This document shows, in pieces, positions 28,217 through 44,034 of a stretch of DNA of 64,000 nucleotides. Source of the DNA: Asaia krungthepensis NRIC 0535. GTDB taxonomy: Bacteria > Pseudomonadota > Alphaproteobacteria > Acetobacterales > Acetobacteraceae. The notes below the pieces were generated by a model. It saw nothing but the letters and a program-made list of their open reading frames with translations, was not told the DNA's origin and made no database searches. Each line of letters begins with the position of its first letter. The first letter of the stretch is position 1. Both the position numbers and the translations under genes were made by a program. Where the stretch lies: positions 62,001 through 126,000 of the forward strand of contig NZ_BAPV01000057.1 of NCBI RefSeq assembly GCF_025995175.1, written 5' to 3'.

Positions 28217-28986
28217 TTCGCCGTTGAGATGGCGTTCCAGTAAAGCGGCAATAGCCGCGCCAGTCTCTGTGCCCAAGAGTTCTGCCCTGCCTCGTTCTCG
28301 ATCAGATCCTGACGGATCTCGATTTCCAGATAGGGCAGTCCGCCCCGTTCCGCATGATAGGGCACGGTATAATCCGATGTGGCGGTCAGCACATAGGGCT
28401 CATTATCCCCGACGCAGAGATCGCCCTCGCCGCGCAGCAGATCGAGCATGATTCCGGCTGAGCGCGTGTCGCGATGATGCAGAATCCCGACATGCCATGG
28501 CCGTTCCACCCCGTTCATGCGTGGGGTAAAGCTGTGCAGGGCAATCAGCGCCGTGGGTCGGGTTCTGGCGGCCAGCAGGGCCGCGATCTGATCGTGATAG
28601 GGATGCAGGATCTCGCTCTCGCGGCGCGCACGACACGCCGCCGAGAGATTGGCGTTCCCGCCGATCGGTGTGTGATCGGAGATGGCCGGAATCGAGGTCG
28701 GGTGGCCCGGTGCCCGGTTGCTGTCGATGACGAGGCGGGAATAGACCTGCTCGACAAGATCAGCGCCCAGCAGGGCCTGAAGCGCTACCCCCACGCCATG
28801 GATACCGATATCCCAGGCAATATGGCGCCCCCAATCGCTCTCGGCGACACCGAGCCGTCCCAGGCTTTGCGGAACGGCGCGCCCGGCATGGTCGCTGACC
28901 AACAGAAAAGGCGAGTCCGATGTCGCCTTCGTGATCCTGAAGGGAGCAGGATCGTCTGGGCCGAGAAGAGGAGGAAACCCGCTCAT
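28213..28986 (-). CDS. N-formylglutamate amidohydrolase family protein
   Basis: This 257-residue hydrolase of the FGase family contains LLVSDHAGRAVPQ near residue 28, YSRLVIDSNRAPG near 82, and LIALHSFTPRMNG near 147; the His and Glu/Asp residues in these segments are the expected zinc ligands. Characterised members remove the formyl group of N-formylglutamate in histidine degradation, but no hut genes are nearby. Here it heads the aroE–coaE–dnaQ transcript and is divergent from argH with a short 60-bp gap. The substrate is therefore uncertain. Confidence 0.83.
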   Translation of the reverse strand: MSGFPPLLGPDDPAPFRITKATSDSPFLLVSDHAGRAVPQSLGRLGVAESDWGRHIAWDIGIHGVGVALQALLGADLVEQVYSRLVIDSNRAPGHPTSIPAISDHTPIGGNANLSAACRARRESEILHPYHDQIAALLAARTRPTALIALHSFTPRMNGVERPWHVGILHHRDTRSAGIMLDLLRGEGDLCVGDNEPYVLTATSDYTVPYHAERGGLPYLEIEIRQDLIENEAGQNSWAQRLARLLPLYWNAISTAK

Positions 28987-29046
28987 GAATTGCGCGCACC
29001 ATGCTGACTGACTAGGTTACCCCTTCTTGACCATAATCCCTACGCC

Positions 29047-30524
<1,478 letters not shown>

Positions 30525-30528
<4 letters not shown>

Positions 30529-30662
30529 AAACCCTGACGCATCTGCTCTGTCTGAGCCTCATCGCGTCCGTCATGCTGACGGCCTGTGGCAAGAAGGGGG
30601 CGCCCCATGCCCCCGGCCCCGCCAGCAAGATCACCTATCCGCATACCTATCCGCCGGAGTAA
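30525..30662 (+). CDS. lptM: LptM-like small lipoprotein (45 aa)
   Basis: A GTG at 30525 overlaps the argH stop and opens a 45-codon frame. It encodes a hydrophobic signal of about 18 residues, the lipobox LTACGKKG, then a short Pro-rich tail ending [11 protein letters not shown](K/Q)KG after the lipobox and this length are typical of LptM (YifL), which helps mature the LPS translocon LptD. In many alphaproteobacteria the same gene sits between argH and lysA. Here lysA is about 15 kb away. The last 32 bases overlap the convergent gluQ gene. The family call rests on motif and gene order only. Confidence 0.8.
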
Positions 30663-31494
30663 CCGGCGCATCCGATAAGGAGGCGCGCGCCAGAGCGATG
30701 ATCCGGTGCGCGTCATATCCCTTGTCACGCAGGGCGCGCAGGCTCTCTGCCCCATCGCGCTTCGAGAGTTTCTGCCCCGTGTCATCGCAGATCAGGCCAT
30801 GATGAGCGTAGAGCGGCGCGTCATATCCCAGCAGTGTCTGCAACACACGATGGACCGAACTCGCCTCGAACAGATCCGCTCCGCGGGTCACGAGGGTAAT
30901 TCTCTGGCGTGCATCGTCCACCGTGACGCAGAGATGGTAAGATACGCCGTTGTCGCGGCGGCCCAGAACCACATCGCCAAATTCGGCAGCCCGGCTGGAC
31001 ACTAACTGCGTGCCGTGTGGCGACCATTCCTCCCAGCCCGGGGCCTGCCCGATCGTGGCGAGTGCCCTCGCCATATCGAGCCTCCAAACATGAGGCCTAT
31101 CGGCCGCTATGCACGCCGTGCGGCAACACCCACCGTAAATCACGCTCCCATCGGGAGCCCGCCCCCTCATGCCCGCCTGCACCTGCGCGCGCGAGCAGCC
31201 ACAGCGATAGACGAGCCCCATGGCGTGCAAGCGCGCGAGTTCGGATCGATAGGTCTCCAGATGGTCGGATTGACGCCGGACCGGAAGCGCGCTTTCGAAC
31301 CCGAGCCAGTCCAGGTCTTCGCGCAAGGCCTGCTCGAAATGCGGCAAGCAGCGCTGTGCGTCGATATCCTCGATGCGTATGAGGAACGTTCCCTCACGAC
31401 CCGCCATAGCGCGTGCATGGCTGGCAGAGGCCATATGCCCCAGATGCAGATATCCCGTCGGGCTCGGGGCGAAACGTGTGCGATATCCTGTCAT
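30631..31494 (-). CDS. gluQ: Glutamyl-Q tRNA(Asp) synthetase
   Basis: GluQ-RS attaches glutamate to the queuosine base of tRNA-Asp. It is a 287-residue, truncated form of glutamyl-tRNA synthetase that lacks the anticodon-binding half, as expected. RFAPSPTGYLHLGH is the HIGH-type motif, IRIEDIDAQR follows, and KLSKRDG stands for KMSKS. CGCSRAQV and the CC pair in YGGCCR match the zinc-binding cysteines. The ATG at 31494 is preferred over one 24 bases upstream. The 3' end overlaps the end of the lipoprotein gene on the other strand. Confidence 0.9.
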   Translation of the reverse strand: MTGYRTRFAPSPTGYLHLGHMASASHARAMAGREGTFLIRIEDIDAQRCLPHFEQALREDLDWLGFESALPVRRQSDHLETYRSELARLHAMGLVYRCGCSRAQVQAGMRGRAPDGSVIYGGCCRTACIAADRPHVWRLDMARALATIGQAPGWEEWSPHGTQLVSSRAAEFGDVVLGRRDNGVSYHLCVTVDDARQRITLVTRGADLFEASSVHRVLQTLLGYDAPLYAHHGLICDDTGQKLSKRDGAESLRALRDKGYDAHRIIALARASLSDAPVTPADRYADR

Positions 31495-31632
31495 CAAACC
31501 TTCGCTTGCCCTGTTCACGGAAAGCTGAAATAGTCGGCGCTATCAGACAGACGGCGCGTATCTATAGGCGCTGGTTTCCCGTCGCGCTTGAGATAATCCG
31601 ATCGTGCCGCCCTGTAAAAGAGGATGCGATCG

Positions 31633-32196
31633 ATGCTTGCCAGCGCCCAGCATTTCCCCGCCCTTGTCCTGAATGCGGATTTTCGTCCGCTTTCATACTT
31701 CCCGCTGTCGCTATGGTCCTGGCAGGAAAGCGTCAAGGCCGTTTTTCTCGACCGTGTCTCGGTCTTGAGCGAATATGACGATATCGAGGTGCATTCGCCC
31801 AGCTGCGTGATGCGTGTGCCGAGCGTCATTGCACTGAAGGAATATATCCCGACGGCGCGACGCCCCGCCTTCACTAGATTCAACGTCTTCCTGCGTGATA
31901 ATTTCTCTTGCCAGTATTGCCATGACCGATTGCCGACGCATGAGCTGACCTTCGATCACGTCATCCCGCGCGCCAAGGGGGGACGCACCACCTGGGAGAA
32001 CGTCGTGACAGCCTGCAGCCCCTGCAATCTCATCAAGGGCTCCAAACTCCCTTCCGAAATCGGCATGCACCCGCGCATCCGTCCGGTACAGCCCTCGACG
32101 CGACGCCTGCAGGAGAACGGACGCAGTTTCCCGCCGAACTACCTGCATGAAAGCTGGCGGGATTATCTGTACTGGGACAGCGAACTCGAAGGCTGA
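31633..32196 (+). CDS. HNH endonuclease family protein
   Basis: This is a 187-residue protein of the HNH family commonly found as a conserved chromosomal gene in proteobacteria. CQYCHDRLPTHELTFDHVIP contains the first CxxC and the catalytic histidine, and the zinc site is completed by CSPCN. VLNADFRPLSYFPLSLWSWQ at the N-terminus is the conserved lead segment of this group. GAGGA stands eight bases before the ATG at 31633, which is chosen over an ATG nine bases upstream. There are no phage or restriction genes around it, so a housekeeping or repair role is as likely as defence. Confidence 0.85.
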   Translation: MLASAQHFPALVLNADFRPLSYFPLSLWSWQESVKAVFLDRVSVLSEYDDIEVHSPSCVMRVPSVIALKEYIPTARRPAFTRFNVFLRDNFSCQYCHDRLPTHELTFDHVIPRAKGGRTTWENVVTACSPCNLIKGSKLPSEIGMHPRIRPVQPSTRRLQENGRSFPPNYLHESWRDYLYWDSELEG

Positions 32197-32225
32197 CCCT
32201 TCTTGCATGTGCGTTCCGGCTACAT

Positions 32226-32585
32226 TTAGCCTTGCGCGAAGAGGGCCTCGTAGACAAGGGGCTTGAAGCCAAGCGTCACCCTCTCTCCCTGCGCCAGAAT
32301 TGGCCGTTTGATCACGGTGGGGTGGGCCAGCATCACGGCCAGAGCCTCCGCCTCGTTGGTGATCTGCTTCTCGGCATCGGGCAGCTTGCGGAAGGTCGTC
32401 CCGGCCCGATTGATCAGAGCCTCCCATCCGACAGAACGCATCCATACGGCAAGATCATCCGCACTTAGTCCTTCCTTCCGCAGATCGTGATAGCGATAGG
32501 CAATCCCCTCTCCCTCAAGCCAGCGCCGTGCCTTGCGCACCGTGTCGCATGTGGTGATTCCATATAATACCGGCTGATTTTCCAT
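32226..32585 (-). CDS. ArsC/Spx-like thioredoxin-fold protein (YffB type)
   Basis: This 119-residue protein has the ArsC/Spx fold. YGITTCDTVRKARRWLE carries the single N-terminal cysteine of the family, KEGLSADDL and FRKLPDAEKQ follow, and TVIKRPIL is the conserved C-terminal motif. AGGAGA six bases before the ATG at 32585 fixes the start. Members of the YffB/ArsC group are often annotated as arsenate reductases, but no arsenic operon is present and there is only one cysteine, so that role is not supported here. Confidence 0.83.
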   Translation of the reverse strand: MENQPVLYGITTCDTVRKARRWLEGEGIAYRYHDLRKEGLSADDLAVWMRSVGWEALINRAGTTFRKLPDAEKQITNEAEALAVMLAHPTVIKRPILAQGERVTLGFKPLVYEALFAQG

Positions 32586-32754
32586 GAGCGTCTCCTTTCC
32601 CAACTTTCGCGATGAGCTCGACCCCGCCCATGCCGGGCCTGACTGCGGGTCACGGTAACTGCGCCAACCAATCGATCATCATCCTCATTGAGCGCAGCAC
32701 GGCAACTGCATCGCCGCCAAATCCGCGCAGGTGCACCAAGACACTGCTGCCGTA

Positions 32755-33651
32755 TCAAGGCTTCCTGTACCTCAACGCATCGACCAGGATCCTGAAAGCA
32801 GGCGGTAGCTCCCGGCGGTCGGGATAATAGAGATGATAGCCCGAAAACGGAGGGCACCAGTCTTGCAGAACCCGCACGAGCCGCCCCGATGCCAGAAGGG
32901 TCAGGGCCTGATCTTCCAGAACGCAGGCAAGGCCCACGCCCTGTGCCGCAGCGTGCAGGATCATCGGCACGTCATTGAGGATGAGCGGCCCTTCAACACG
33001 CACCTTGAGATCACGCCCGTCGCGGCCGAACTCCCATGCATAAAGGCCTCCACGTGTCTGCATACGGATATTGATACAGGCATGTCCCGTAAGATCATGG
33101 GGGGTCGCGGGGACACCTCGGGACGCCAGATAATCGGGTGAGCCGACGACAGCCATGCGCAGTTCCGGGCTGATCGGCACGGCGATCATGTCCTTTGCGA
33201 CCTGCTCGCCGAGCCTGATGCCTGCATCGAAACGATCAGTGATGATATCGGTCAACTGGCTGTCGATGGAAATCTCGATCACCAGTTCGGGATAGGCTTC
33301 AAGCAAACGCCCCACCGTGGGCCAGAGTATGGTCTCCGCTGCATGACGGCTGGAGGTGACGCGCACTGTGCCGGAAGGTTTCTCCCTCAGCGCACTCAGG
33401 CGCGAGAGCTGGGCATCGATGTCGCTGAGAGCGGGACGCAGCGTCGCCAGCAATTGCTCTCCCGCTTCGGTCGGAGCGACATTGCGCGTATTGCGGGTCA
33501 GCAGCTTGACACCCATCCCTGCTTCGAGCCGACGGACGATCTGGCTGATTGCGGACTGGGATGCGCCCAGAAGGGCCGCTGCCCGCGTGAAGCTGCGTGC
33601 CTCGGCAACAGCAAGGAACACGACCAGATCGCTCAGCTCTTCGCGTCTCAT
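32755..33651 (-). CDS. LysR-family transcriptional regulator
   Basis: This LysR regulator of 298 residues has the N-terminal helix-turn-helix FTRAAALLGASQSAISQIVR and the linker LEAGMGVKLLTRNTRNVAPT, which are typical of the AaeR/DsdC-like subgroup with the LLTRNTR block. The effector domain begins at GTVRVTSS. It is divergent from two tandem SDR genes, with an intergenic region containing repeated AGAC/GTCT half-sites. The most likely regulon is therefore those dehydrogenases. The inducer is unknown. Confidence 0.88.
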   Translation of the reverse strand: MRREELSDLVVFLAVAEARSFTRAAALLGASQSAISQIVRRLEAGMGVKLLTRNTRNVAPTEAGEQLLATLRPALSDIDAQLSRLSALREKPSGTVRVTSSRHAAETILWPTVGRLLEAYPELVIEISIDSQLTDIITDRFDAGIRLGEQVAKDMIAVPISPELRMAVVGSPDYLASRGVPATPHDLTGHACINIRMQTRGGLYAWEFGRDGRDLKVRVEGPLILNDVPMILHAAAQGVGLACVLEDQALTLLASGRLVRVLQDWCPPFSGYHLYYPDRRELPPAFRILVDALRYRKP

Positions 33652-33669
33652 TGATTAGCCCTGATGATA

Positions 33670-33725
33670 AGACCATGCAGAATACAGCGTCTAATTTATA
33701 AAAACACAGACGGCTATATCTGTCT
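33670..33725. promoter_or_regulatory. Repeated AGAC/GTCT half-sites, candidate LysR operator
   Basis: In the gap between the LysR gene and the first SDR gene, AGAC occurs at 33670 and 33708, and its complement GTCT at 33689 and 33722. These give two nested inverted pairs with half-site spacings of 19, 19 and 14 bases. An A/T-rich stretch lies between them. This is compatible with a LysR tetramer site, but the half-sites are short and could be chance. Confidence 0.3.
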
Positions 33726-33787
33726 TCCCGAATGACCTCCGGCGCGAATTCACCCCCCGCGCGAGGTACAGAGAGCGGAGATTGAGT

Positions 33788-34621
33788 ATGACGAGAGACC
33801 TAGTCGTGATCATCGGCGCAGGCGGTATCGGTGAAGCCATCGCCCGACGTCAGGGTGTCGGCAAAGTGCTTCTGCTCGCCGACCGCAACGTGCAAACGCT
33901 CGAAGCTGCCGCAATGCGCCTTCGTGAGGCGAGCTATGATGTCGTCACACAAAACGTGGACGTGACATCACGCGCTTCAGTGCAGGCGCTGGCCCGCAGA
34001 GCACAGGAGCTCGGCCGGGTCATGCAGATCATCAACACGGCGGGGCTATCGCCCAATATGGCCCTGGCGCGAACTGTGCTCGAAGTTGATCTCTACGGAT
34101 CGGCGCTCGTTTTCGAGGTGTTCGGCGCCGTGATCGCACCAGGGGGCGCGGGGCTGATCATCTCGAGCATGGCAGGTCACATGATACGCCCATTGCCTGA
34201 AGACCAGGAAAAGCAACTCGCGTCGACACCAGCTGATGAATTGCTCGCCTTGCCGTTCCTTCGACCAGAGGCAATCCCAAATAGCATGATCGCTTATATG
34301 GTCGCCAAGCGCGCGAATTATCTGCGGGTCCAGGCCGAGGCGGTCCGCTGGGGTGAGAAAGCTGCGCGCGTCAACGCCATCAGCCCCGGCATCGTCGTCA
34401 CACCACTCGCAGCGCATGAACTTGCCTCCGAAATCGGTCCTGTCTATCGCGCCATGGTCGAAGCATCGCCAGCCAAACGCATGGCGCCCCCGGATGAAAT
34501 TGCGATCGCCGCAAGCTTCCTGCTAGGGCCCGATGCGGGATTCATCACAGGAAGCGATCTTCTCATTGATGGCGGCGTAATCGCAGCCATGCGTGCCGGG
34601 CGGCTCCCCGCGCCGGGTTAG
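33788..34621 (+). CDS. SDR-family oxidoreductase
   Basis: This short-chain dehydrogenase of 277 residues has the Rossmann motif IIGAGGIGEAIARR at the N-terminus, a shortened form of TGxxxGIG. The catalytic Tyr-x-x-x-Lys reads YMVAK, the serine lies in ISSMAGHM, and NAISPGIVVTPLA follows as the usual loop. CGGAG-like bases precede the ATG at 33788. It is the first of two paralogous SDR genes downstream of the divergent LysR regulator. The substrate is unknown. Confidence 0.88.
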   Translation: MTRDLVVIIGAGGIGEAIARRQGVGKVLLLADRNVQTLEAAAMRLREASYDVVTQNVDVTSRASVQALARRAQELGRVMQIINTAGLSPNMALARTVLEVDLYGSALVFEVFGAVIAPGGAGLIISSMAGHMIRPLPEDQEKQLASTPADELLALPFLRPEAIPNSMIAYMVAKRANYLRVQAEAVRWGEKAARVNAISPGIVVTPLAAHELASEIGPVYRAMVEASPAKRMAPPDEIAIAASFLLGPDAGFITGSDLLIDGGVIAAMRAGRLPAPG

Positions 34622-35057
34622 TCCGTCCACATGAGCGCTTGACCGCATGCCAGGGTTGGCTCACCGGATCAGGCGGTTATCGAGAGGGACAGGCAATCGG
34701 GCGCGTCACCTCACACGCGCAGTGGCGCTCTATCAAGGCACTTCACCGGACCCGGGGGGGGACACGCCCTCTTTTGCTGCGCGCGTCGCATGCTCCACGC
34801 CTAGCCCACGGATCCGGGAGCGCAAGTCCCGCTTACAGAAAAGAGTGGTGCAGCCTGGTATGCCCGGGAGGGTGCTCATAATAGGCGCGCCTGTCGCCAC
34901 CATCTTCTTAGGTACGCCGACCATATTTTCTGACCGCGAAAGCCAACCTCTCAAGGACGATACCTGCGTCCGCCAGGAAACCCTCCCTGGTCTCCAATCC
35001 ATTCGACCGGGGAGGTCTCAACAACACACTGTGTCAACGAAGCAAGGAGAAACCTCG
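34622..35057. other. Intergenic region between the paralogous SDR genes
   Basis: This 436-bp gap contains no frame that resembles a protein family. The second SDR frame is open through most of it, but the translation is an unrelated Arg/Ser/Pro-rich stretch without SDR features. The real start at 35058 has its own AAGGAG site. A promoter for the second gene is expected here, but no clear -35/-10 pair was identified. Confidence 0.5.
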
Positions 35058-35885
35058 ATGTCTGATGTGATCGTTCTCACCGGTGCCGGCTCGATCGGTC
35101 AGGCCATTGCGCGGCGCGTGAGCGCGGGCAAGATCCTGCTGATTGCCGATGTGACGCCTGGCAATGCCGAAACCGCAGCGAAAACCCTCGCAGATGCGGG
35201 CTACGATGTACGTACCGCCAGCGTGGATATCGCGTCTCGCCGCTCGGTCGAGGCGCTGGCAACGCAAGCGCAAGCGCTGGGGCCGATCACCGGTCTCATA
35301 CAGGCCGCCGGTGTCTCGCCTTCCCAGGGTAACATCGAGACGATTCTCAAAATCGATCTCTACGGGACGGCGCTCGTTCTCGAATGCTTTGGCAAGGTGA
35401 TAGCGACCGGTGGCGCAGGCCTCGTCATTTCGTCACAATCCGGCCACCGAATGGGCGCGCTCACCCCTGAACAGGACCGCGAGCTGGCCGTGACGCCCGT
35501 GGATGCATTGCTGGATCTGCCCTTTCTGCAGCCAGACGCTGTACGCGACACGCTGCATGCCTATCAGCTATCCAAGCGCGCCAATGGCTTGCGGGTACGG
35601 GCTCAGGCCATCAACTGGGGCAAGCGCGGTGCGCGGGTCAATGCTATCAGTCCGGGAATTGTCATCACGCCACTGGCAAATGACGAACTGCGTGGCCCAA
35701 GAGGCGCCAGCTATCGCAGCATGATCGAGAGCTCACTCGCCGGACGCGCAGGCACACCCGACGAAATTGCCACGCTCGCCGCGCTCATCATGAGCCCCGA
35801 TGGACGCTTTATCACCGGGAGCGATTTCCTGATCGATGGCGGCACGACCGCCGTTCATTGGTGCAAGGAGTGGGATCTGTCCTGA
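35058..35885 (+). CDS. SDR-family oxidoreductase, paralogue of the preceding gene
   Basis: This 275-residue SDR closely resembles its upstream neighbour over the whole length: LTGAGSIGQAIARR, VISSQSGHRMGALTPEQ, catalytic YQLSK, NAISPGIVITPLA and FITGSDFLIDGG. The ATG at 35058 follows AAGGAG at a spacing of about eight bases. The long separation (436 bp) from the first SDR gene makes independent expression possible. Tandem duplication followed by divergence is the simplest origin. The substrate is unknown. Confidence 0.88.
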   Translation: MSDVIVLTGAGSIGQAIARRVSAGKILLIADVTPGNAETAAKTLADAGYDVRTASVDIASRRSVEALATQAQALGPITGLIQAAGVSPSQGNIETILKIDLYGTALVLECFGKVIATGGAGLVISSQSGHRMGALTPEQDRELAVTPVDALLDLPFLQPDAVRDTLHAYQLSKRANGLRVRAQAINWGKRGARVNAISPGIVITPLANDELRGPRGASYRSMIESSLAGRAGTPDEIATLAALIMSPDGRFITGSDFLIDGGTTAVHWCKEWDLS

Positions 35886-36163
35886 CAAGGCTGATCCCCA
35901 CCCAGGAAAGGGAAATCTGCCTTCGCCTGAAAATGCCTCGCCGGTGATTCCGGTCTTCGCAACGTGGTCAAGCCACGTCCTGCCGGCGCGACTGTATGGA
36001 TGCCGGGAGCACATCACAGGGTCGTGCCAATCTTGGCTCTCTGTGGGCCGAGCCTGCCATACCATGTCTTGACGCGTCGGGAGGGCAGAACTCCCGGACG
36101 GCGTGGGTCCCCAAATCCGCCCACGCCAACACGCCCCCTGATCAGGTGTTTGAAACCGGGAGG
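35886..36163. other. Intergenic region left of the guaA island
   Basis: The 278 bp between the second SDR stop and the left copy of the att-like repeat show no recognisable gene. Open frames here have no family resemblance. If the repeat marks an insertion, this stretch would originally have been the region just downstream of guaA. Confidence 0.5.
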
Positions 36164-36176
36164 ATCATTCCCACTC
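36164..36176. repeat. Left att-like direct repeat of the guaA 3' end
   Basis: ATCATTCCCACTC is an exact copy of the 13 bases at 40790-40802, where it forms the last codons of guaA (reverse complement GAGTGGGAATGA plus one base). The two copies are in the same orientation, as expected for the flanking sites of an element integrated at the 3' end of guaA. Confidence 0.75.
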
Positions 36177-36745
36177 TAATATTTTTTCTACGATAAGCGA
36201 TTGATTTTATTGTGGAAAATCTTCTCTTTGGCCGCCAGCGCCGAGGCGTAGGCCGTCAAAAACCTATCCTTTTGCTTTTGCGGGATTTTTTGGCAATTTT
36301 AGCGCAGAAAAAATTCTGTGAACTATCGGTATCTATCGACCCTTTCGCAGTGAGGCGTAGACCTCAGATCTCGAATCTTTTGCTCCCGATAAAGTACCGC
36401 CAAAATCGGCGAGATCAATACACCCACCTCGATCCTGGATTTCCGGGATGGTGGGCTGGATCAAGCGCGACAGAGGTTGAGAGGGTGAAGACAGTTTCCC
36501 GGGAAGAGCTTTACGTATAGCAAACGTTCCCCAAAAACACCGCCACAACAAATCGCAGAGTCGAAGCACGAGCGTAGACGCCCCGCTGTAACGGCCCTCC
36601 TCCTATCCAAGAGGAGGACAAATGTCTCGAGGAAAGCCAGTCGCGTAGGTAACGAACTCTCACACGGATTGCTTTATCAGGAAGAGGGCAACCGCTGCAC
36701 TCACTAAGAGACAGGGCGTCAAGACCAGAGACGATCGCGCAACGC
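36177..36745. other. Non-coding left part of the island
   Basis: These 569 bp are relatively A/T-rich, especially 36177-36330 with several runs of Ts, in contrast to the surrounding chromosome. No protein family is recognisable. One feature stands out: an excellent ribosome-binding site (GAGGAGGA, 36611-36618) followed by ATG at 36622, but only eight codons (MSRGKPVA) before a TAG. This may be the stump of a lost gene. No integrase fragment was identified. Confidence 0.5.
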
Positions 36746-39700
36746 TCAGCCCACGATCAAGCGGGCAAGCCGGTCAACCTCGACCATGTCCAGGCCCGAA
36801 CCCGCCGCTTCCTTGGTCTCGATCAGGACATCTCCCCCAGCCTGTTCATCGATCGGTCGAATGCCTGCTGCCAGGTAGGCCGCACGTTTGATCTGCCATC
36901 GTGCCGCATATTGCGGGTCCGACAGCATGCCGAGATGCTCCCAATAATATGTGACCCCAGAGTCCTCATCGATGATCGTGAAATCAGGCCAGCGCGTCTT
37001 GCCGTCGAGTTGCAGGGGTTGCTCGTAGACGTAGCCGACGCCCATGCCGTTCAATTTTTCTGCGATGGCCAATTCCGACTTGGACCGAACGAACTCGCCC
37101 CGGCTCGTTCGATGCATAAGATGCTTGTCGAGAAACCGTGGGCCTGAGACCGTCTTCACCTCGACCGGCCCAGGCGCCTCGAAGAGATCCGTCATTCGCC
37201 GTGCGATCTCCGAGGCCGACGGATCCGAGTATTGCCGCAACGCGCCGATGTCATCTTCGTGGAGAAGGATCAGCTCTTCCTGATGTCGCGTGATCGCTGT
37301 GTAGAGCAGCTCTCGCGACAAGGGTCGGCAATTGCGCGGCAGCACGACGAACGTGCGCTCGAATTGACTGCCCTGCGTTTTGTGAACCGTGAGCGCATAG
37401 GCGAGTTCGAGCTCTGGAGTTCCCTCCTCGCCCGAGAACTCGCTCGCAAAGTAGGTGAATTTCACGCCGGGCTGACTGGCGAACTCGACTTCGAGGTCGC
37501 GTGGGCGATACTTCATCTTTCCCGTCTTGTAGCCCCCGACGACGATTCCGATGTCGCCGTTAGCGACGTAAGCCCGTTCCTGTCGCGGGTAGGTGCGACG
37601 CCGGCCGTTGTTGCGAAGGTTGATCACCTTGTCGCCCCACAGCACGCCTTGAGGACCTGCAGGCTTAGGATATTTCGCATATGGGGTGAGCGCACGGTCG
37701 CGTACCTTGTCCCGGAACCGACGCTGGATCGCGAGATTGATCGCTTCCACACCAGGGGGGCCCGTCCGGACTGGTGAAAGGATCTGCCAGTCGTGAGCGG
37801 CCTCGGCAGCGCCGCCTTCGGCTTCACCGGCGCGCCGTGCCCAGAAAAGCACATGTCCTTCCCATTCGCTTCCGCCTAGGCTCAGCTCGAAGCCGCGCTG
37901 ATCAGCGCGGTCGGCAAGCGCAAGACCTCGTACAATTTCGTCGGTGAGGCGCGGTTCCAGCTCGCTAGGGAGAGCCCAATGGGCGGTCCGCACGTGCGAC
38001 AGCGTGCCGGACCTTAGCGCCTCCCACACTTCGTCTGCGCCGGCATCCAGGGGCTCGCCGCTGAACTGCCGAGCCAGCAGCACGTCGCCGCGGTCTGTCC
38101 CGCGCTGGCGGCCGATGATGGTGAGCTCGGCATATCCTGGGGCCACCTTCGGAAACTGAGGCGTATCCTCTGAAGGCGCGAGCTTCCGACAGATGTCCAC
38201 AAACGGTCTGCCGGCGCCAATAGGCGGAAGCTGGCGAGGATCGCCAACCAAAATCAAGCGATCAACGCCCTCAATCGCGTCGATGAGTGCCGAAAGCTGG
38301 TCCTCTGTAAGCATCGAACACTCATCGACGATGACCGACCGATACCCCTTCTCGCGCGGCGCTTCTGGATTACGGAAGTACCGTCCGCTCGCCCCGTCAT
38401 ACCGCTCATAGCGCTGGAGAAACTGAGCCAGTGTCTGGCCCTCACCAAGACGTTCGGTCGCTTCCTCTAAGCGGACGCGCGCTTTCCCGGTCGGCGCCAG
38501 CAGAAGGATCCCGCCCGAGCCGATCTCTGGAAGGTCGCACAGGACCTTCAGGAGTGTCGTCTTGCCCGAACCCGCTGGACCGATAAGGACGGAGAATCGT
38601 CCGCATGCGAGTTGCTCGAGTGCGCCCGATTTCTCCCGTCGCGCCAGTTCCTCGACCTCGGCTTCAGGCCCGGTTCCCATTGGAGGCAGTACCGCATCGA
38701 CGAGCGCGCGCCATTTGTGGACGATCGCGTGGCGCTTGCCACCGACGCGTTTGCGGACCGCGTTCGTGATCGCCGTGCGCGACGCCCCATAACGCCGAAG
38801 CTTCAGCGCGATTTCGCCGTCGGAGGTTCGCGCACTTTCCAACGTGGACGCGAGGTAGTCCGCCACCATATCGATCACGTCTTCGTCGACCATGCAGCGT
38901 GGGTCGAGCGGCGCTTCGATCGCTCTCCTAACGATCCAGCTGCGCGGGAGAAGCGTGTGCCCCTCGTTCTGGACAGCATGCTCCAACATGTCGGTGATCA
39001 GCGCGCGAACTCGACGCTTGTCGATCCCGTCGGTCATCGCCGCTTGAGCGGGAAGCGGCGCGACCTCGCGAATAACATCGGCTGGGAATACGCCACGATC
39101 GACGATGCCAAAGGCTATCCTTTGGGCCGCCGTCTCGTCCCGCTCATAGAGAAGGTACGGATTGGCCAAGATGTCGGCGTCGCTCGTTGCCTCGGTAAAG
39201 ACGCTACGCTGAGTAGCCTGATAGGCTCGGAGTGCTTGGTCAGTGGTCAGACTACAGCGCGCGACCAGATCGAGCAGTTGTCGGCGTGGCAGCGCGAGGC
39301 TCTTCCATTTCTCGCGATAAGACGAACCGAAGCCGAGCTTCTCGGCCTGCGGACATGCCGAGGGCTTCTTCACGATGTGGTCGATAAACGCGAAGGCATC
39401 GAACACCTCGCCTTCACGACTCCCCGCACGCACGATCTCATGCGCCAGCAGCGATCCATGCGCCAGACCGAAAGCGCTCAGAGCACTTCCTAGTCCCGGA
39501 TGAACGCCTCGCGCCTTCCACAGACGCGCAATCTCACGATCGATCCACGCGAGAGAGCCGGAAACGTCAGTTTCGACGACCTTCGCTGTCGCTCGCAAAG
39601 CCGCGGCGCAAGCGAGCAGCGACGCTATTGCGCCGTCATGGCCGAGATGCTCTGCGCCGTATGAGAACGCGTCGAACTGGTCATCAGGCGCAAAGGCGAC

Positions 39701-40507
39701 GCAATCTTCGACGGGCACGCTTGCATCTGCCTGTGAAGCGGCAAGGACGTCATAATAAGGCATGAGGAAGCCATCGTCGCCACCGGGGCGAAGCGAATGG
39801 CGGACACATCGCTCCCAGAGCACGCCCTTAAGGTCACCAGGCGAGTCATAGGCGTATTCGGTATGCCCGCCAATGCCGTTGACCTTGGCAACACCGACGA
39901 TTACACGGTTTGCGCTTTCCGAGAGCGGCGTCTTCTTTGCATAGAAAAAACAGAGTGACGTCTTCGGCAGGAGGGCCCCGAAGAACGTGTCCAGCATGAT
40001 GAGCTGGTTCGTCTTGTCCTGAACCCAACCCGTTTCAAACGACAGGTCCGGCTCGCGTTCGGGATCATAGGCTAGCCGCAACGCTGTTGCCTTGCCGAGA
40101 TCACCCTCGCTCTCGTCGCCCTCGATGTTTGATTTCAACATCCATCCGAAGGGAATGCATGCTGCCGAATAGGCTTCGATCCGCAGCTTCGTCTCGCCGA
40201 AATGGCCGTGCGTCGTAGGGCTCGAAAGCTTGTAGGGGTGCTGCTTGGTTAGAACGAGGTCGTGGTCGCACATAAAGCTGACACGCTCATCGACACATGG
40301 CGGTAGCACCGCCGGCCCGAGCTCATCGAACAACCTTCCCGCTATAGCATCCTGATCTTCACGTTTTGCCGAGGCGATGCGTCCGAGGACCAGACATGAA
40401 GTGTTCGCCGACGGTGCGGTGCAGACACGCCCATTCCAGCCACCATCATGCCAAGGCACACGTATCGTTATGTGCTGCCACGGCAGCTTTCCGGAACCGG
40501 CGATCAT
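36746..40507 (-). CDS. RecD-like helicase with C-terminal PD-(D/E)XK-type nuclease domain, 1253 aa
   Basis: This is a very large protein. Residues 1-600 match no domain I can name. They carry a conserved-looking start (PWHDGGWNGRVC, residues 18-29, then NTSCLVLGRI) and PYSAACIPFGWML-like residues near 112-124. Residues 635-1085 form a superfamily 1B (RecD-like) helicase: Walker A GPAGSGKTT at 643-651, VDECSM at 728-732, GDPRQLPP at 755-762 and the C-terminal VHKTQGSQFE at 1041-1050. Residues 1130-1215 look like a PD-(D/E)XK nuclease: SKSELAIAEKL (Glu1145), RWPDFTI (Asp1175) and YYWEHLG (Glu1190). GAGGGG precedes the ATG. It is the only sizeable gene between two att-like repeats. A role in defence against foreign DNA is inferred, not shown. 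Confidence 0.8.
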   Translation of the reverse strand: MIAGSGKLPWQHITIRVPWHDGGWNGRVCTAPSANTSCLVLGRIASAKREDQDAIAGRLFDELGPAVLPPCVDERVSFMCDHDLVLTKQHPYKLSSPTTHGHFGETKLRIEAYSAACIPFGWMLKSNIEGDESEGDLGKATALRLAYDPEREPDLSFETGWVQDKTNQLIMLDTFFGALLPKTSLCFFYAKKTPLSESANRVIVGVAKVNGIGGHTEYAYDSPGDLKGVLWERCVRHSLRPGGDDGFLMPYYDVLAASQADASVPVEDCVAFAPDDQFDAFSYGAEHLGHDGAIASLLACAAALRATAKVVETDVSGSLAWIDREIARLWKARGVHPGLGSALSAFGLAHGSLLAHEIVRAGSREGEVFDAFAFIDHIVKKPSACPQAEKLGFGSSYREKWKSLALPRRQLLDLVARCSLTTDQALRAYQATQRSVFTEATSDADILANPYLLYERDETAAQRIAFGIVDRGVFPADVIREVAPLPAQAAMTDGIDKRRVRALITDMLEHAVQNEGHTLLPRSWIVRRAIEAPLDPRCMVDEDVIDMVADYLASTLESARTSDGEIALKLRRYGASRTAITNAVRKRVGGKRHAIVHKWRALVDAVLPPMGTGPEAEVEELARREKSGALEQLACGRFSVLIGPAGSGKTTLLKVLCDLPEIGSGGILLLAPTGKARVRLEEATERLGEGQTLAQFLQRYERYDGASGRYFRNPEAPREKGYRSVIVDECSMLTEDQLSALIDAIEGVDRLILVGDPRQLPPIGAGRPFVDICRKLAPSEDTPQFPKVAPGYAELTIIGRQRGTDRGDVLLARQFSGEPLDAGADEVWEALRSGTLSHVRTAHWALPSELEPRLTDEIVRGLALADRADQRGFELSLGGSEWEGHVLFWARRAGEAEGGAAEAAHDWQILSPVRTGPPGVEAINLAIQRRFRDKVRDRALTPYAKYPKPAGPQGVLWGDKVINLRNNGRRRTYPRQERAYVANGDIGIVVGGYKTGKMKYRPRDLEVEFASQPGVKFTYFASEFSGEEGTPELELAYALTVHKTQGSQFERTFVVLPRNCRPLSRELLYTAITRHQEELILLHEDDIGALRQYSDPSASEIARRMTDLFEAPGPVEVKTVSGPRFLDKHLMHRTSRGEFVRSKSELAIAEKLNGMGVGYVYEQPLQLDGKTRWPDFTIIDEDSGVTYYWEHLGMLSDPQYAARWQIKRAAYLAAGIRPIDEQAGGDVLIETKEAAGSGLDMVEVDRLARLIVG

Positions 40508-40690
40508 CTCTTCCCCTCAATACGCATCACCGCAAGACCTTGCGGAATCTTCGATCGATACTGGCCATTTTATCGCTCGTCAGATCCCGAGGACTACAGC
40601 TCCGAATTCTCTTCTGACGGCACTTTCAAATTTCTCGGTGATCAATATGGGCAAGGGCCGTCAACTGGGCCGCCACTTCCGATCCTTGCC

Positions 40691-40782
40691 CACCGATAGG
40701 CACCGATAGATGCCTAGTGAATTATTTATTTTTATCAGTGGGTTAGATAGTATTCTAGCGTAGTTTCGGATACGCTCGGATA
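40691..40782. repeat. Paired 10-bp-period repeats beside guaA
   Basis: CACCGATAG occurs twice at 40691 and 40701, and TCGGATA twice at 40766 and 40776, each pair with a 10-base period. The inverted pair TAGGCA (40697) and TGCCTA (40711) overlaps the first set. The sites lie just inside the island next to the right att-like repeat, where arm-type sites for a tyrosine integrase or excisionase would be expected. Confidence 0.4.
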
Positions 40783-40789
40783 GGCAAAA

Positions 40790-40802
40790 ATCATTCCCAC
40801 TC
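40790..40802. repeat. Right att-like direct repeat, overlapping the guaA stop
   Basis: ATCATTCCCACTC covers the last 12 bases of guaA and one following base. It is identical to 36164-36176. The 3' end of guaA is an established integration site for genomic islands, so this copy is read as the site that preserves the gene's reading frame after integration. Confidence 0.75.
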
Positions 40803-42386
40803 GATCGTACCCGGCGGCTTGGACGTGATGTCATAGGTCACGCGGTTGATGCCGCGCACCTCGTTGACGATACGTCCCGCCACGCGGTTCAGGAAACCGA
40901 AATCGAAGGGATAGACCTCAGCCGTCATGCCATCCGTGCTGGTGACGGCGCGCAGCGCGCAGGCCTGGTCATAGGTGCGGCCATCGCCCATCACGCCGAC
41001 GGTGCGGACCGGCAGCAACACGGCAAAAGCCTGCCAGATGGCATCATAGAGCCCGGCATTGCGGATCTCTTCAAGATAGATTGAATCCACCTTGCGCAGC
41101 AGGTCGAGCTTCTCCCTGTCAATCGCACCCGGGATACGAATGGCGAGCCCCGGTCCAGGGAAGGGATGACGCCCGACAATGGCTTCAGGAATTCCGAGCT
41201 CGCGACCCAGCGCACGCACCTCGTCCTTGAACAATTCGCGCAGCGGCTCGACCAATTCCATGTTCATACGGTCGGGCAAACCACCGACATTGTGGTGCGA
41301 CTTGATGGTGACCGAAGGACCGCCGGTGAAGCTGACAGATTCGATCACGTCGGGATAAAGCGTGCCCTGAGCCAGGAACTGGGCACCGCCCAGCTTGGTC
41401 GCTTCTTCCTCGAACACTTCGATAAACAGGCGCCCGATGGTCTTGCGCTTCACCTCCGGGTCCGTCACGCCAGCAAGAGCGTTCAGGAACAGATCCGACG
41501 CATCGCGATGGACAAGGCTGATATTGAAACGGCCACGGAAGGTCTTGACGACCTCATCGGCTTCGCCTGCCCGCAGAATGCCCGGATCGACGAAGATACA
41601 GGTGAGCTGATCGCCAATAGCATCATGAATCAGCTTGGCCGCAACCGACGAATCAACACCGCCCGAGAGACCGCAAATGACGCGGCCTGACCCGACCTGC
41701 TCGCGGATGCGCGCGATTTCGAGATCGCGGAACCCGGCCATGGTCCATGTGCCTTTGCATCCGGCCACATCATGGGTGAAGTTCTTGATCAGGGCTGCGC
41801 CATGCGGCGTATGCACGACCTCAGGGTGGAACTGCACCCCATAGAGGCGACGCCCTTCATCGGCGATGATCGCAAACGGTGCGCCTTCCGACCAGGCCAC
41901 GGCCCGGAAGCCGGGGGGAAGTGCCGTGACGCGATCGCCATGGCTCATCCAGACCTGCTCGCGATGCCCGCGCGACCAGGCACCACGGAACAACGCGCAA
42001 TCTTCGGCGATTTCGATATGGGCGCGGCCGAACTCGCGATGCTCATGGGTTTCAACCTTGCCACCGAGACGCGCACACATGGCCTGCTGGCCATAGCAGA
42101 TGCCAAGCACGGGCACGTTGAGATCGAAGACGATCTCAGGGATCTGCGGCGCATTATCGTCGTGCACGCTGGCCGGGCTACCTGAAAGGATGATACCGCG
42201 CGGATGGAAACCGCGGATCTTCTCTTCCGTTGCGGTGAACGGCCAGATCTCACAGTAGACGCCGCTCTCACGCACACGACGGGCGATGAGCTGCGTGACC
42301 TGACTGCCGAAGTCGAGAATCAGGATACGATCCTCGTGAAGCTGAAGGTCGAGGTTATCGGCGTTCTGCGGGGCGGTTTCAGTCAT
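40791..42386 (-). CDS. guaA: GMP synthase (glutamine-hydrolysing)
   Basis: GuaA aminates XMP to GMP, the last step of guanine nucleotide synthesis. The N-terminal class I glutaminase domain has [15 protein letters not shown] and the nucleophile cysteine in GICYGQQAM. The ATP-pyrophosphatase domain has the loop [14 protein letters not shown]. The C-terminal dimerisation domain ends in the conserved KPPGTIEWE. The length of 531 residues is normal and the gene is intact despite the island next to its 3' end. It is divergent from a lipoprotein gene. Confidence 0.96.
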
Positions 42387-42598
42387 GGCGCTCTTTCAAC
42401 ACGTCGTGCATGGGCAAGTTCTGTGGGCATCGTATAGGATGTTCGCAGGGCATCGTCATCCCAAAGCACGCATTTGCCCCCCGCTAAATGTCACCATTTC
42501 TTCACCCGGACGAGAGAATCATGCCCTTCCTCCCCCTCATCACTGCCACCGCGAGGGTTCGCCTGGCTTCTGAAGCAATCATGCGGTGTGGCTTCGGC

Positions 42599-42982
42599 AT
42601 GAGGACAGCATGCCTGACTCTCCTGGGGCTCAGCGCCGGCCTGACCGCCTGCTCGCCGCCCGCGCCTCCCAGCAAGGACCCCATCGGGCTCTGGACCGGA
42701 GCGCTCGTGGCCGATGAGGGCAGTTGTCCGACGACCACTGATTCGACCCTTCAGATCGGCACCAAGGTGATCAGCTTCACCCCGGGGGATAATGCGCTGG
42801 TGCTCAAGGGCGTGCGGGGCACCGACCCACACCATTATCATGCCCAGCTCGACCTCAAGGACGCGCAGGGCAAACCCTACAGCATCGTCTTCAATGGCTA
42901 TCCGGTAGGGAATGCGATCGGCGGCATTTACGGGGCTCCGACATGCCGCGCCCATATCGTCATGACCCGCCCAAATCATTGA
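42599..42982 (+). CDS. Hypothetical lipoprotein
   Basis: This protein of 127 residues is not recognised. The ATG at 42599 gives a compact lipoprotein signal, [19 protein letters not shown], with the lipobox LTAC. The mature part has a [18 protein letters not shown] segment and a second cysteine pair partner near PTCRAHIV, with alternating hydrophobic residues that suggest a small beta-barrel. An upstream in-frame ATG at 42488 would hide the signal inside the protein. It stands between guaA and the tRNA pair. Confidence 0.72.
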
Positions 42983-43046
42983 TTGAAAAAAATTCTTTTT
43001 CCCTCTTGCGGGGTCGGACAACTCGCAGTAGAACCCGCCCCACGAC

Positions 43047-43123
43047 GCACCCGTAGCTCAATTGGATAGAGCACCAGACTACGAATCTGGGGGTTAGAGG
43101 TTCGAGTCCTTTCGGGTGCGCCA
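43047..43123 (+). tRNA. tRNA-Arg (ACG), first copy
   Basis: A complete 77-nt cloverleaf is present. The acceptor stem pairs GCACCCG with CGGGTGC, the D arm is GCTC/GAGC, and the anticodon stem is CCAGA/TCTGG with loop CTACGAA, so the anticodon is ACG. The T loop is TTCGAGT, and CCA is encoded. A34 would be deaminated to inosine to read CGU, CGC and CGA. Confidence 0.97.
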
Positions 43124-43132
43124 GTATAAATC

Positions 43133-43152
43133 GTGATCAGTCAAATGATCAC
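43133..43152. other. Hairpin in the spacer between the tRNA genes
   Basis: GTGATCA (43133-43139) and TGATCAC (43146-43152) form a perfect 7-bp stem with a 6-base loop within the 32-bp spacer between the two tRNA copies. It may help processing of the tandem transcript. There is no T-run, so it is not a typical terminator. Confidence 0.45.
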
Positions 43153-43155
43153 TAC

Positions 43156-43232
43156 GCACCCGTAGCTCAATTGGATAGAGCACCAGACTACGAATCTGGG
43201 GGTTAGAGGTTCGAGTCCTTTCGGGTGCGCCA
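43156..43232 (+). tRNA. tRNA-Arg (ACG), second identical copy
   Basis: This 77-nt gene is identical base for base to the copy at 43047-43123, including the encoded CCA. The same spacing of all arms shows that both are functional-looking. Tandem duplication or unequal recombination is the likely origin. Confidence 0.97.
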
Positions 43233-43254
43233 TTCTCTTTCTGAAAATCAGCCG

Positions 43255-44034
43255 TCAGCCTGACACCGTCAAAGTCGTGCCCGTGATGGCGCGTGCCTGA
43301 TCAGAGGCCAGAAAGAAGACGGCTTGTGCGATATCATCCGCCTCAATAGCCCTGCTGGACGGTATATTCTTTCGCATGCGCGCGTGAGACGGCGCGGCAC
43401 AGGGTGCAACCGACACCACTCTTATTCCGTCCGCCGCCACCTCATCTGACAACGCCTTGGTGAGAGCCTCAACTGCGCCGCAGGACGTCGCTTCCGGCAC
43501 GTGGAATATCCTGCTGCCCGATCGTGTTGCGACAGACGAGATGTTGATGATGACGCCGCCGACACCCCCCGCCGACACGGACATCTGACGTACCGCCTCA
43601 GCGCTCATCAAAACCGTACCCAGTATATTGGTATCGATCACCGTCTCCAGATCCTCCGGGGAGGCTCCCGCCAAGGGAACGGCGCGACCCGCCATACCGA
43701 CATTGTTCACGAGGACACCGATACGCCCATATGCCTCGCATCCTCTTCTGAACGTTTCTGCAATCGCCTTACGATCACGGATATCGAGAGGCAGTGCCAG
43801 CGCGCGCCCCCCTGCCCGATTGATTTCAACTGCAAGCGTCAGGACAGGCTCGCATTTGCACCAATAGGTGAGGATGACCGGATAGGCTGCACGAGCGAAG
43901 CGCAGCGCTACAGCACGACCGATATCACAGCTTGCGCCGGAGATCAGAATGGCGTGTTCGGGTTCAACAGAACGGGCCGCCAACCCCGGATGCGTACGAC
44001 TGCGGGGCGCGCGACCTCCAACGGTCGTATCCAT
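43255..44034 (-). CDS. SDR-fold protein with degenerate active site
   Basis: This 259-residue protein has a clear SDR fold: ISGASCDIGRAVALRFA at residues 31-47, LVNNVGMAG near 109, VIINISSVA at 161-169 and a C-terminal AQAVFFLASDQARAITGTTLTVSG. The catalytic YxxxK position reads EATSC (181-185), so Tyr is Glu and Lys is Cys. The middle Gly of the nucleotide-binding loop is Asp (ASCDIG). It is therefore probably not an ordinary dehydrogenase. It may bind a ligand or partner, or be a gene in early decay that is still open. An A10 tract lies just upstream of the ATG. Confidence 0.82.
   Translation of the reverse strand: MDTTVGGRAPRSRTHPGLAARSVEPEHAILISGASCDIGRAVALRFARAAYPVILTYWCKCEPVLTLAVEINRAGGRALALPLDIRDRKAIAETFRRGCEAYGRIGVLVNNVGMAGRAVPLAGASPEDLETVIDTNILGTVLMSAEAVRQMSVSAGGVGGVIINISSVATRSGSRIFHVPEATSCGAVEALTKALSDEVAADGIRVVSVAPCAAPSHARMRKNIPSSRAIEADDIAQAVFFLASDQARAITGTTLTVSG

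Follow-up and report, generated by a model that had tools for sequence, protein, structure and literature searches.

In the window, a 64,000-nucleotide stretch of the Asaia krungthepensis NRIC 0535 genome, a small island at the 3' end of guaA carries one intact gene for a 1,253-residue protein of PDC-S68, a PADLOC family of phage-defence candidates. The protein consists of a probable EVE/YTH-like N-terminal domain, an SF1B RecD-like helicase core and a C-terminal module with the acidic residues of a PD-(D/E)XK-type nuclease. The gene is likely a defence gene, and we put at roughly one in two the probability that its product is a one-protein enzyme against viruses or plasmids, a helicase-nuclease directed by a mark or by DNA structure. 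Feature coordinates are collected in Table 1.

Table 1. Features of the guaA island and of the protein encoded on it (positions in the window)
Feature	Coordinates	Strand	Basis
Insert (island), 4,626 bp, guaA 3' end	36164..40789	.	Absent from G008; flanks contiguous there
attR-like 13-bp direct repeat ATCATTCCCACTC	36164..36176	.	Same 3' end in Agrobacterium L004
attL-like 13-bp direct repeat ATCATTCCCACTC, covers guaA stop codon	40790..40802	.	Single copy in G008 empty site (L101)
guaA, integration target	40791..42386	-	ORF; homologue in 6/6 genomes searched
Helicase-nuclease gene, PADLOC PDC-S68 family, 1,253 aa	36746..40507	-	ORF; full-length PDLC05065 match; codon-position bias
Putative EVE/YTH (PUA-like) reader-like domain, residues 8-310	39578..40486	-	AlphaFold2 pLDDT 93; VIA Z; hhalign
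HxxxRxPWHDxxWxGxVC..P..N..C...PPC motif, residues 12-71	40295..40474	-	46-homologue conservation
RecD2-type pre-helicase region (helix-hairpin/winged-helix), residues 404-591	38735..39298	-	VIA Z 11.5
SF1B RecD-like helicase core, residues 629-1085	37253..38623	-	AAA_30, UvrD_C_2; RecD2 3gpl match
Walker A GPAGSGKT, residues 643-650	38558..38581	-	G643, G646, G648, K649 in 46/46
Predicted PD-(D/E)XK-type nuclease domain, residues 1130-1233 (E1145, D1175, E1190)	36809..37120	-	Invariant residues; weak T7 endonuclease I alignment

A guaA island with one sizeable gene

The single 1,253-residue ORF given in a preliminary description of this DNA, which named no strand, was confirmed and lies on the minus strand (40507..36746). 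It starts with ATG, preceded by a Shine-Dalgarno-like GAGGGG, and the host genome contains one copy. Its homologue in Agrobacterium larrymoorei (L004) is likewise a 3,762-base ORF that aligns without gaps (protein identity, 93%), and substitutions between the two fall 66/27/373 at codon positions 1/2/3. This pattern marks a selected protein rather than a chance ORF; the gene is intact and under strong purifying selection.

The description had also presented the gene as the lone cargo of an island, which the comparison with a genome of the same genus bore out. In G008 (L101), which represents the empty site, the sequence corresponding to window positions 28509-36176 (93.1% identical) directly abuts that of 40789-43341 (94.1%), the two matches overlapping by 14 bases. 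Since the direct repeat occurs twice in the window and once in G008, the insert sits at the 3' end of guaA. No integrase gene, no other sizeable coding content and no Rfam RNA were seen within the 4,626 bp. Other ORFs of the insert (e.g., 36212-36520) were rejected as probably spurious, as in the Agrobacterium sequence (86% identical) the longest open frames are interrupted or reduced in length. The island GIsul2 integrates at the same guaA end with the same GAGTGGGA core (PMC9376610); insertion point and core are thus common to GIsul2-type guaA islands, whereas the 4.6-kb insert described here is without integrase. With its att repeats, missing integrase and empty site elsewhere, the insert can be read as a CIME-like element, and it looks like the decayed remains of a larger guaA island.

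Its attR side (36163-36746) shares 86% identity with the corresponding Agrobacterium end, and positions 40716-40790 match (81%) the attL end of a different guaA island in another genome of the genus (G002). That island (L112 15366-18668, G002:C21) has the window-type attL, then a short ORF resembling a truncated tyrosine-integrase N-terminus and an apparent serine recombinase, both read by eye, followed by ParB-like genes and by a large helicase locus. Two tandem tRNA-Arg(ACG) genes lie just upstream of guaA (window 43047-43232), the attachment site being elsewhere.

The gene was found in none of eight other genomes of the genus and in a single one of the roughly 50 other genomes searched from the family; over all 100 genomes searched the count was 2, the host's own included. 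The protein is 93% identical to that of Agrobacterium and 69% identical to that of same-family G032; for guaA the values are 71% and 78%, respectively. Rather than being core repair genes, the homologues are sporadic in distribution and horizontally moved.

Domain architecture

Structures were modelled with AlphaFold2 from 46 homologues, and residue conservation was counted over 46 full-length homologues. The motor proved to be a complete SF1B helicase core, as originally described: the Walker A residues G643, A645, G646, G648 and K649 and the Walker B residues D728 and E729 occur in 45 to 46 of 46 homologues, and later helicase motifs are likewise invariant. The model of residues 480-1253 (pLDDT 88) had RecD2 and RecD as best fold neighbours (Z 20-23, matching residues 480-1110), with a Z of 23.2 over 479 residues for RecD2 3gpl. 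The preceding residues 404-591 matched Deinococcus radiodurans RecD2 (3gp8) with a VIA Z of 11.5 across 154 residues. Helicase core and helix-hairpin/winged-helix region are common to RecD2 and the 1,253-residue protein, which differs by its EVE-like N-terminal domain and C-terminal nuclease and by scoring 189 bits against the curated cut-off of 500 of RecD2 NCBIfam TIGR01448. We regard it as very improbable that the gene encodes a repair or replication helicase, a RecD2 variant merely travelling on islands: the motor is indeed closest to RecD2, but the missed cut-off, the fused nuclease, the occurrence in only 2 of the 100 genomes and the defence-rich neighbours described below argue against it. 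Assignment as a RecD2 repair gene was rejected on cut-off and distribution.

Residues 1-600 had initially been called an unrecognised region with conserved-looking Trp/Cys motifs. The motif is real, with R16, W19, C29, N35, C38 and C71 each invariant (46/46) and H12 present in 44/46, but the label held only in part, as the region includes the RecD2-like part and, N-terminally, an EVE/YTH-like one (Z 5-7). In the model of residues 1-630 (pLDDT 93), leading VIA matches of residues 8-310 were YTH domains (Mmi1, YTHDF2, YTHDC2) and EVE-type proteins (PH1033, THYN1, MJECL36) at Z 5.3-7.3, a range below 8 in which a match can reflect a common arrangement. In hhalign, the family profile scored 27.9 against the EVE profile (PF01878; probability 12.8%), a value reached by 0/300 column-shuffled EVE profiles (maximum 27.0), and aligned the strand pair SLCFFYAK...VIVGVAKV with DLAFFYHS...IVGIMRI. 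Scores against other families were 13.2 (ASCH), 11.5 (S1) and 16.1 (S4), with the method being insensitive here, given that EVE fails to align with ASCH, too. Pfam EVE matched 0/46 family members at E ≤ 1, and Pfam searches with residues 5-345 and 1105-1253 returned weak DUF matches and TPD (E 0.002) only. Foldseek alone, run with the N-terminal model against PDB and BFVD, in which the family may be absent, gave nothing below E 0.01. Taken from model and profile comparisons, residues 8-310 probably form an EVE/YTH-like domain; a role in reading modified bases is a tentative proposal. H12, C29, C38 and C71 are a possible metal site, and the motif R16/W19/C29/N35/C38/C71 could serve either metal binding or a ligand pocket.

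The main rival to modified-base reading is sensing of DNA structure, SSB or damage, in the style of Hna and Hachiman. The same defence enzyme would then use its N-terminal domain as a DNA-binding clamp, and free ends, forks or phage SSB would give specificity, as in Hachiman, Gabija and Hna. Motors of the RecD type are loaded at ends and forks, and the PUA-like resemblance of residues 8-310 is weak. The trigger of Hna is phage SSB (PMC13381803), and HamB is a sensor of DNA damage (PMC12278908). Nevertheless, the N-terminal motif is invariant at six positions across phyla, which suggests a specific ligand or metal, and an EVE-like profile signal exists; we consider structure sensing rather unlikely.

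At the C-terminus, the nuclease-like arrangement of Glu1145, Asp1175 and Glu1190 noted previously is invariant in all 46 homologues, as are S1142, K1143, Y1161, E1162, P1174, F1176, W1189, H1191, L1192 and G1193. The secondary structure predicted in the 480-1253 model places the three acidic residues in the order of a PD-(D/E)XK core, so that the prediction is in keeping with the nuclease fold proposed for this segment. The (D/E)xK lysine two residues past the last acidic residue is absent, the sequence reading E1190-H-L(-G) in 46/46. With this lysine missing, any catalysis would require a substitute, which could be the invariant K1143 or H1191. Migration of the lysine is known within the PD-(D/E)XK superfamily. 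The closest solved sequence was T7 endonuclease I, which has the RS..E, YE and PDF segments in common with the protein in a weak alignment (E 0.16). These segments contain its catalytic E20 and D55, and its ETKG motif is replaced by EHLG here.

The YYWEHLGM nuclease module, covered by no Pfam family in the proteins scanned, also occurs in other contexts (L056, L057, L061, L066, L072, L078, L079 and L080). L072 and L078 have it joined to DEAD-box helicases; stand-alone proteins of ∼265 residues are found in gut Clostridia (Lachnospiraceae). In Photobacterium, a separate 165-residue protein (L045:16009-16503) has a second copy of the nuclease domain (E 6e-10), ∼2.5 kb downstream of a homologue whose own nuclease domain ends early.

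Membership in Hna, prompted by rhizobial plasmid homologues, was rejected on motor type and length. Hna is also a single protein with a helicase followed by a C-terminal PD-(D/E)XK domain, and the two may work alike, but it comprises 845 residues with an N-terminal SF2 DinG-like motor (PMC13381803), in contrast to the SF1B RecD-like motor at residues 629-1085 of 1,253 here.

The PDC-S68 family and its defence neighbourhoods

Whether the family is listed in defence-gene catalogues, which had been left open, can be answered: it is, as a candidate. PADLOC profile PDLC05065 (PDC-S68) matched residues 9-1250 over model positions 4-1217 of 1,221 (E = 0, 1,503.8 bits), a full-length match by which the protein is a member of PDC-S68; no difference from the family was found. 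What is new here is one more member of an already catalogued family, the mechanism of which is undescribed in the literature searched; in the open-access literature, no paper mentioning the name PDC-S68 and no functional test of the family was found. The PADLOC label presumably marks a guilt-by-association candidate, so that label and context are not independent lines of evidence.

Full-length relatives are spread over many bacterial phyla, some archaeal contigs, eight plasmids and about 10 IMG/VR contigs. Many are metagenome bins, for which the taxon label may be mistaken. The relatives on contigs called viral (L171-L181) may belong to true phages or to misbinned islands. On plasmids, the N-terminal domain was found in the PDC-S68-type architecture only (8/8). 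On one Sphingomonas plasmid (L115:10330-13724) the annotation divides the homologue into two adjacent genes, which may reflect a frameshift or a natural split.

For the neighbourhood survey, 103 proteins flanking 18 homologues were compared with 101 control proteins from the same 18 genomes. The flanks matched 188 PADLOC families at E ≤ 1e-20 and the controls 12, figures that count models, not genes, and of which the former is inflated by overlapping helicase models and the latter stems from proteins near argH, maybe a place poorer in defence genes than average. Relatives are thus rich in defence neighbours, which include type III restriction and modification (L012, L010), full-length DrmD (L027), full-length BrxHI (L017), an ISP-type enzyme with toxin-antitoxin genes (L119), type I restriction (L120) and NACHT (L114). 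The characterization of the gene as self-contained is right for the window locus, but close relatives adjoin type I restriction loci as well as other clusters of defence genes.

These adjacencies raise the alternative of an accessory subunit of restriction systems that would finish DNA cut or stalled by HsdR, the window copy being a stranded leftover without partners. The Agrobacterium gene directly follows HsdR of a type I restriction locus and a YgjP-like metallopeptidase, a Bartonella plasmid homologue lies beside SprT, HsdR, HsdS and HsdM, and upstream homology between window and Agrobacterium ends 105 bp ahead of the gene. On the other hand, neighbours varied over the 44 loci, and clustering revealed no constant partner; the most widely conserved cluster (10 loci) consisted of generic large helicases. 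Moreover, the window and Agrobacterium genes differ mostly at silent sites. A search of the flank proteins with the N-terminal domain profile matched no other flank protein. The lack of a constant partner fits a single-gene system riding in defence clusters, and we judge the accessory role improbable.

Proposed mechanism and implications

Domains, mobility and the PDC-S68 match support the original proposal of a defence candidate that joins helicase and nuclease modules in one island-borne protein. In the mechanism we favour, the reader-motor-nuclease protein would work as follows. The N-terminal EVE/YTH-like domain would recognise a chemical or structural mark on foreign DNA: a modified base in the former case, an exposed end or fork in the latter. 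Then the RecD2-like SF1B motor would load and translocate, 5' to 3' if it shares the polarity of its SF1B relatives, and may drive the nuclease along DNA. The C-terminal PD-(D/E)XK domain would cut the unwound strand, and either single- or double-stranded DNA may be the target. The outcome would be protection through destruction of the invader or, if the enzyme were unrestrained, destruction of the host chromosome.

EVE fused to McrB provides a precedent for modified-base reading (PMC7641849), as do the EVE-like domains that DISARM class 1 helicases carry (PMC12458937). Both EVE-McrB and DISARM class 1 DrmA likewise combine an EVE-like domain with an NTP-driven DNA motor in defence, but use a GTPase or a YprA-type helicase for this, whereas here the motor is of SF1B type and the nuclease is fused in cis. 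A more specific version, possible if on the doubtful side, is that PDC-S68 comprises one-polypeptide modification-dependent restriction enzymes of a new design, found throughout bacteria and archaea and built from an EVE/YTH reader, an SF1B motor and a lysine-shifted PD-(D/E)XK domain.

The features most worth attention are the reader-like N-terminal domain and the missing lysine. Reading the domains as putative reader, motor and cutter, with their invariant residues, makes a catalogue family without a mechanism directly testable. If the modification-dependent version is true, an SF1B motor would join the engines of base-modification-directed defence.
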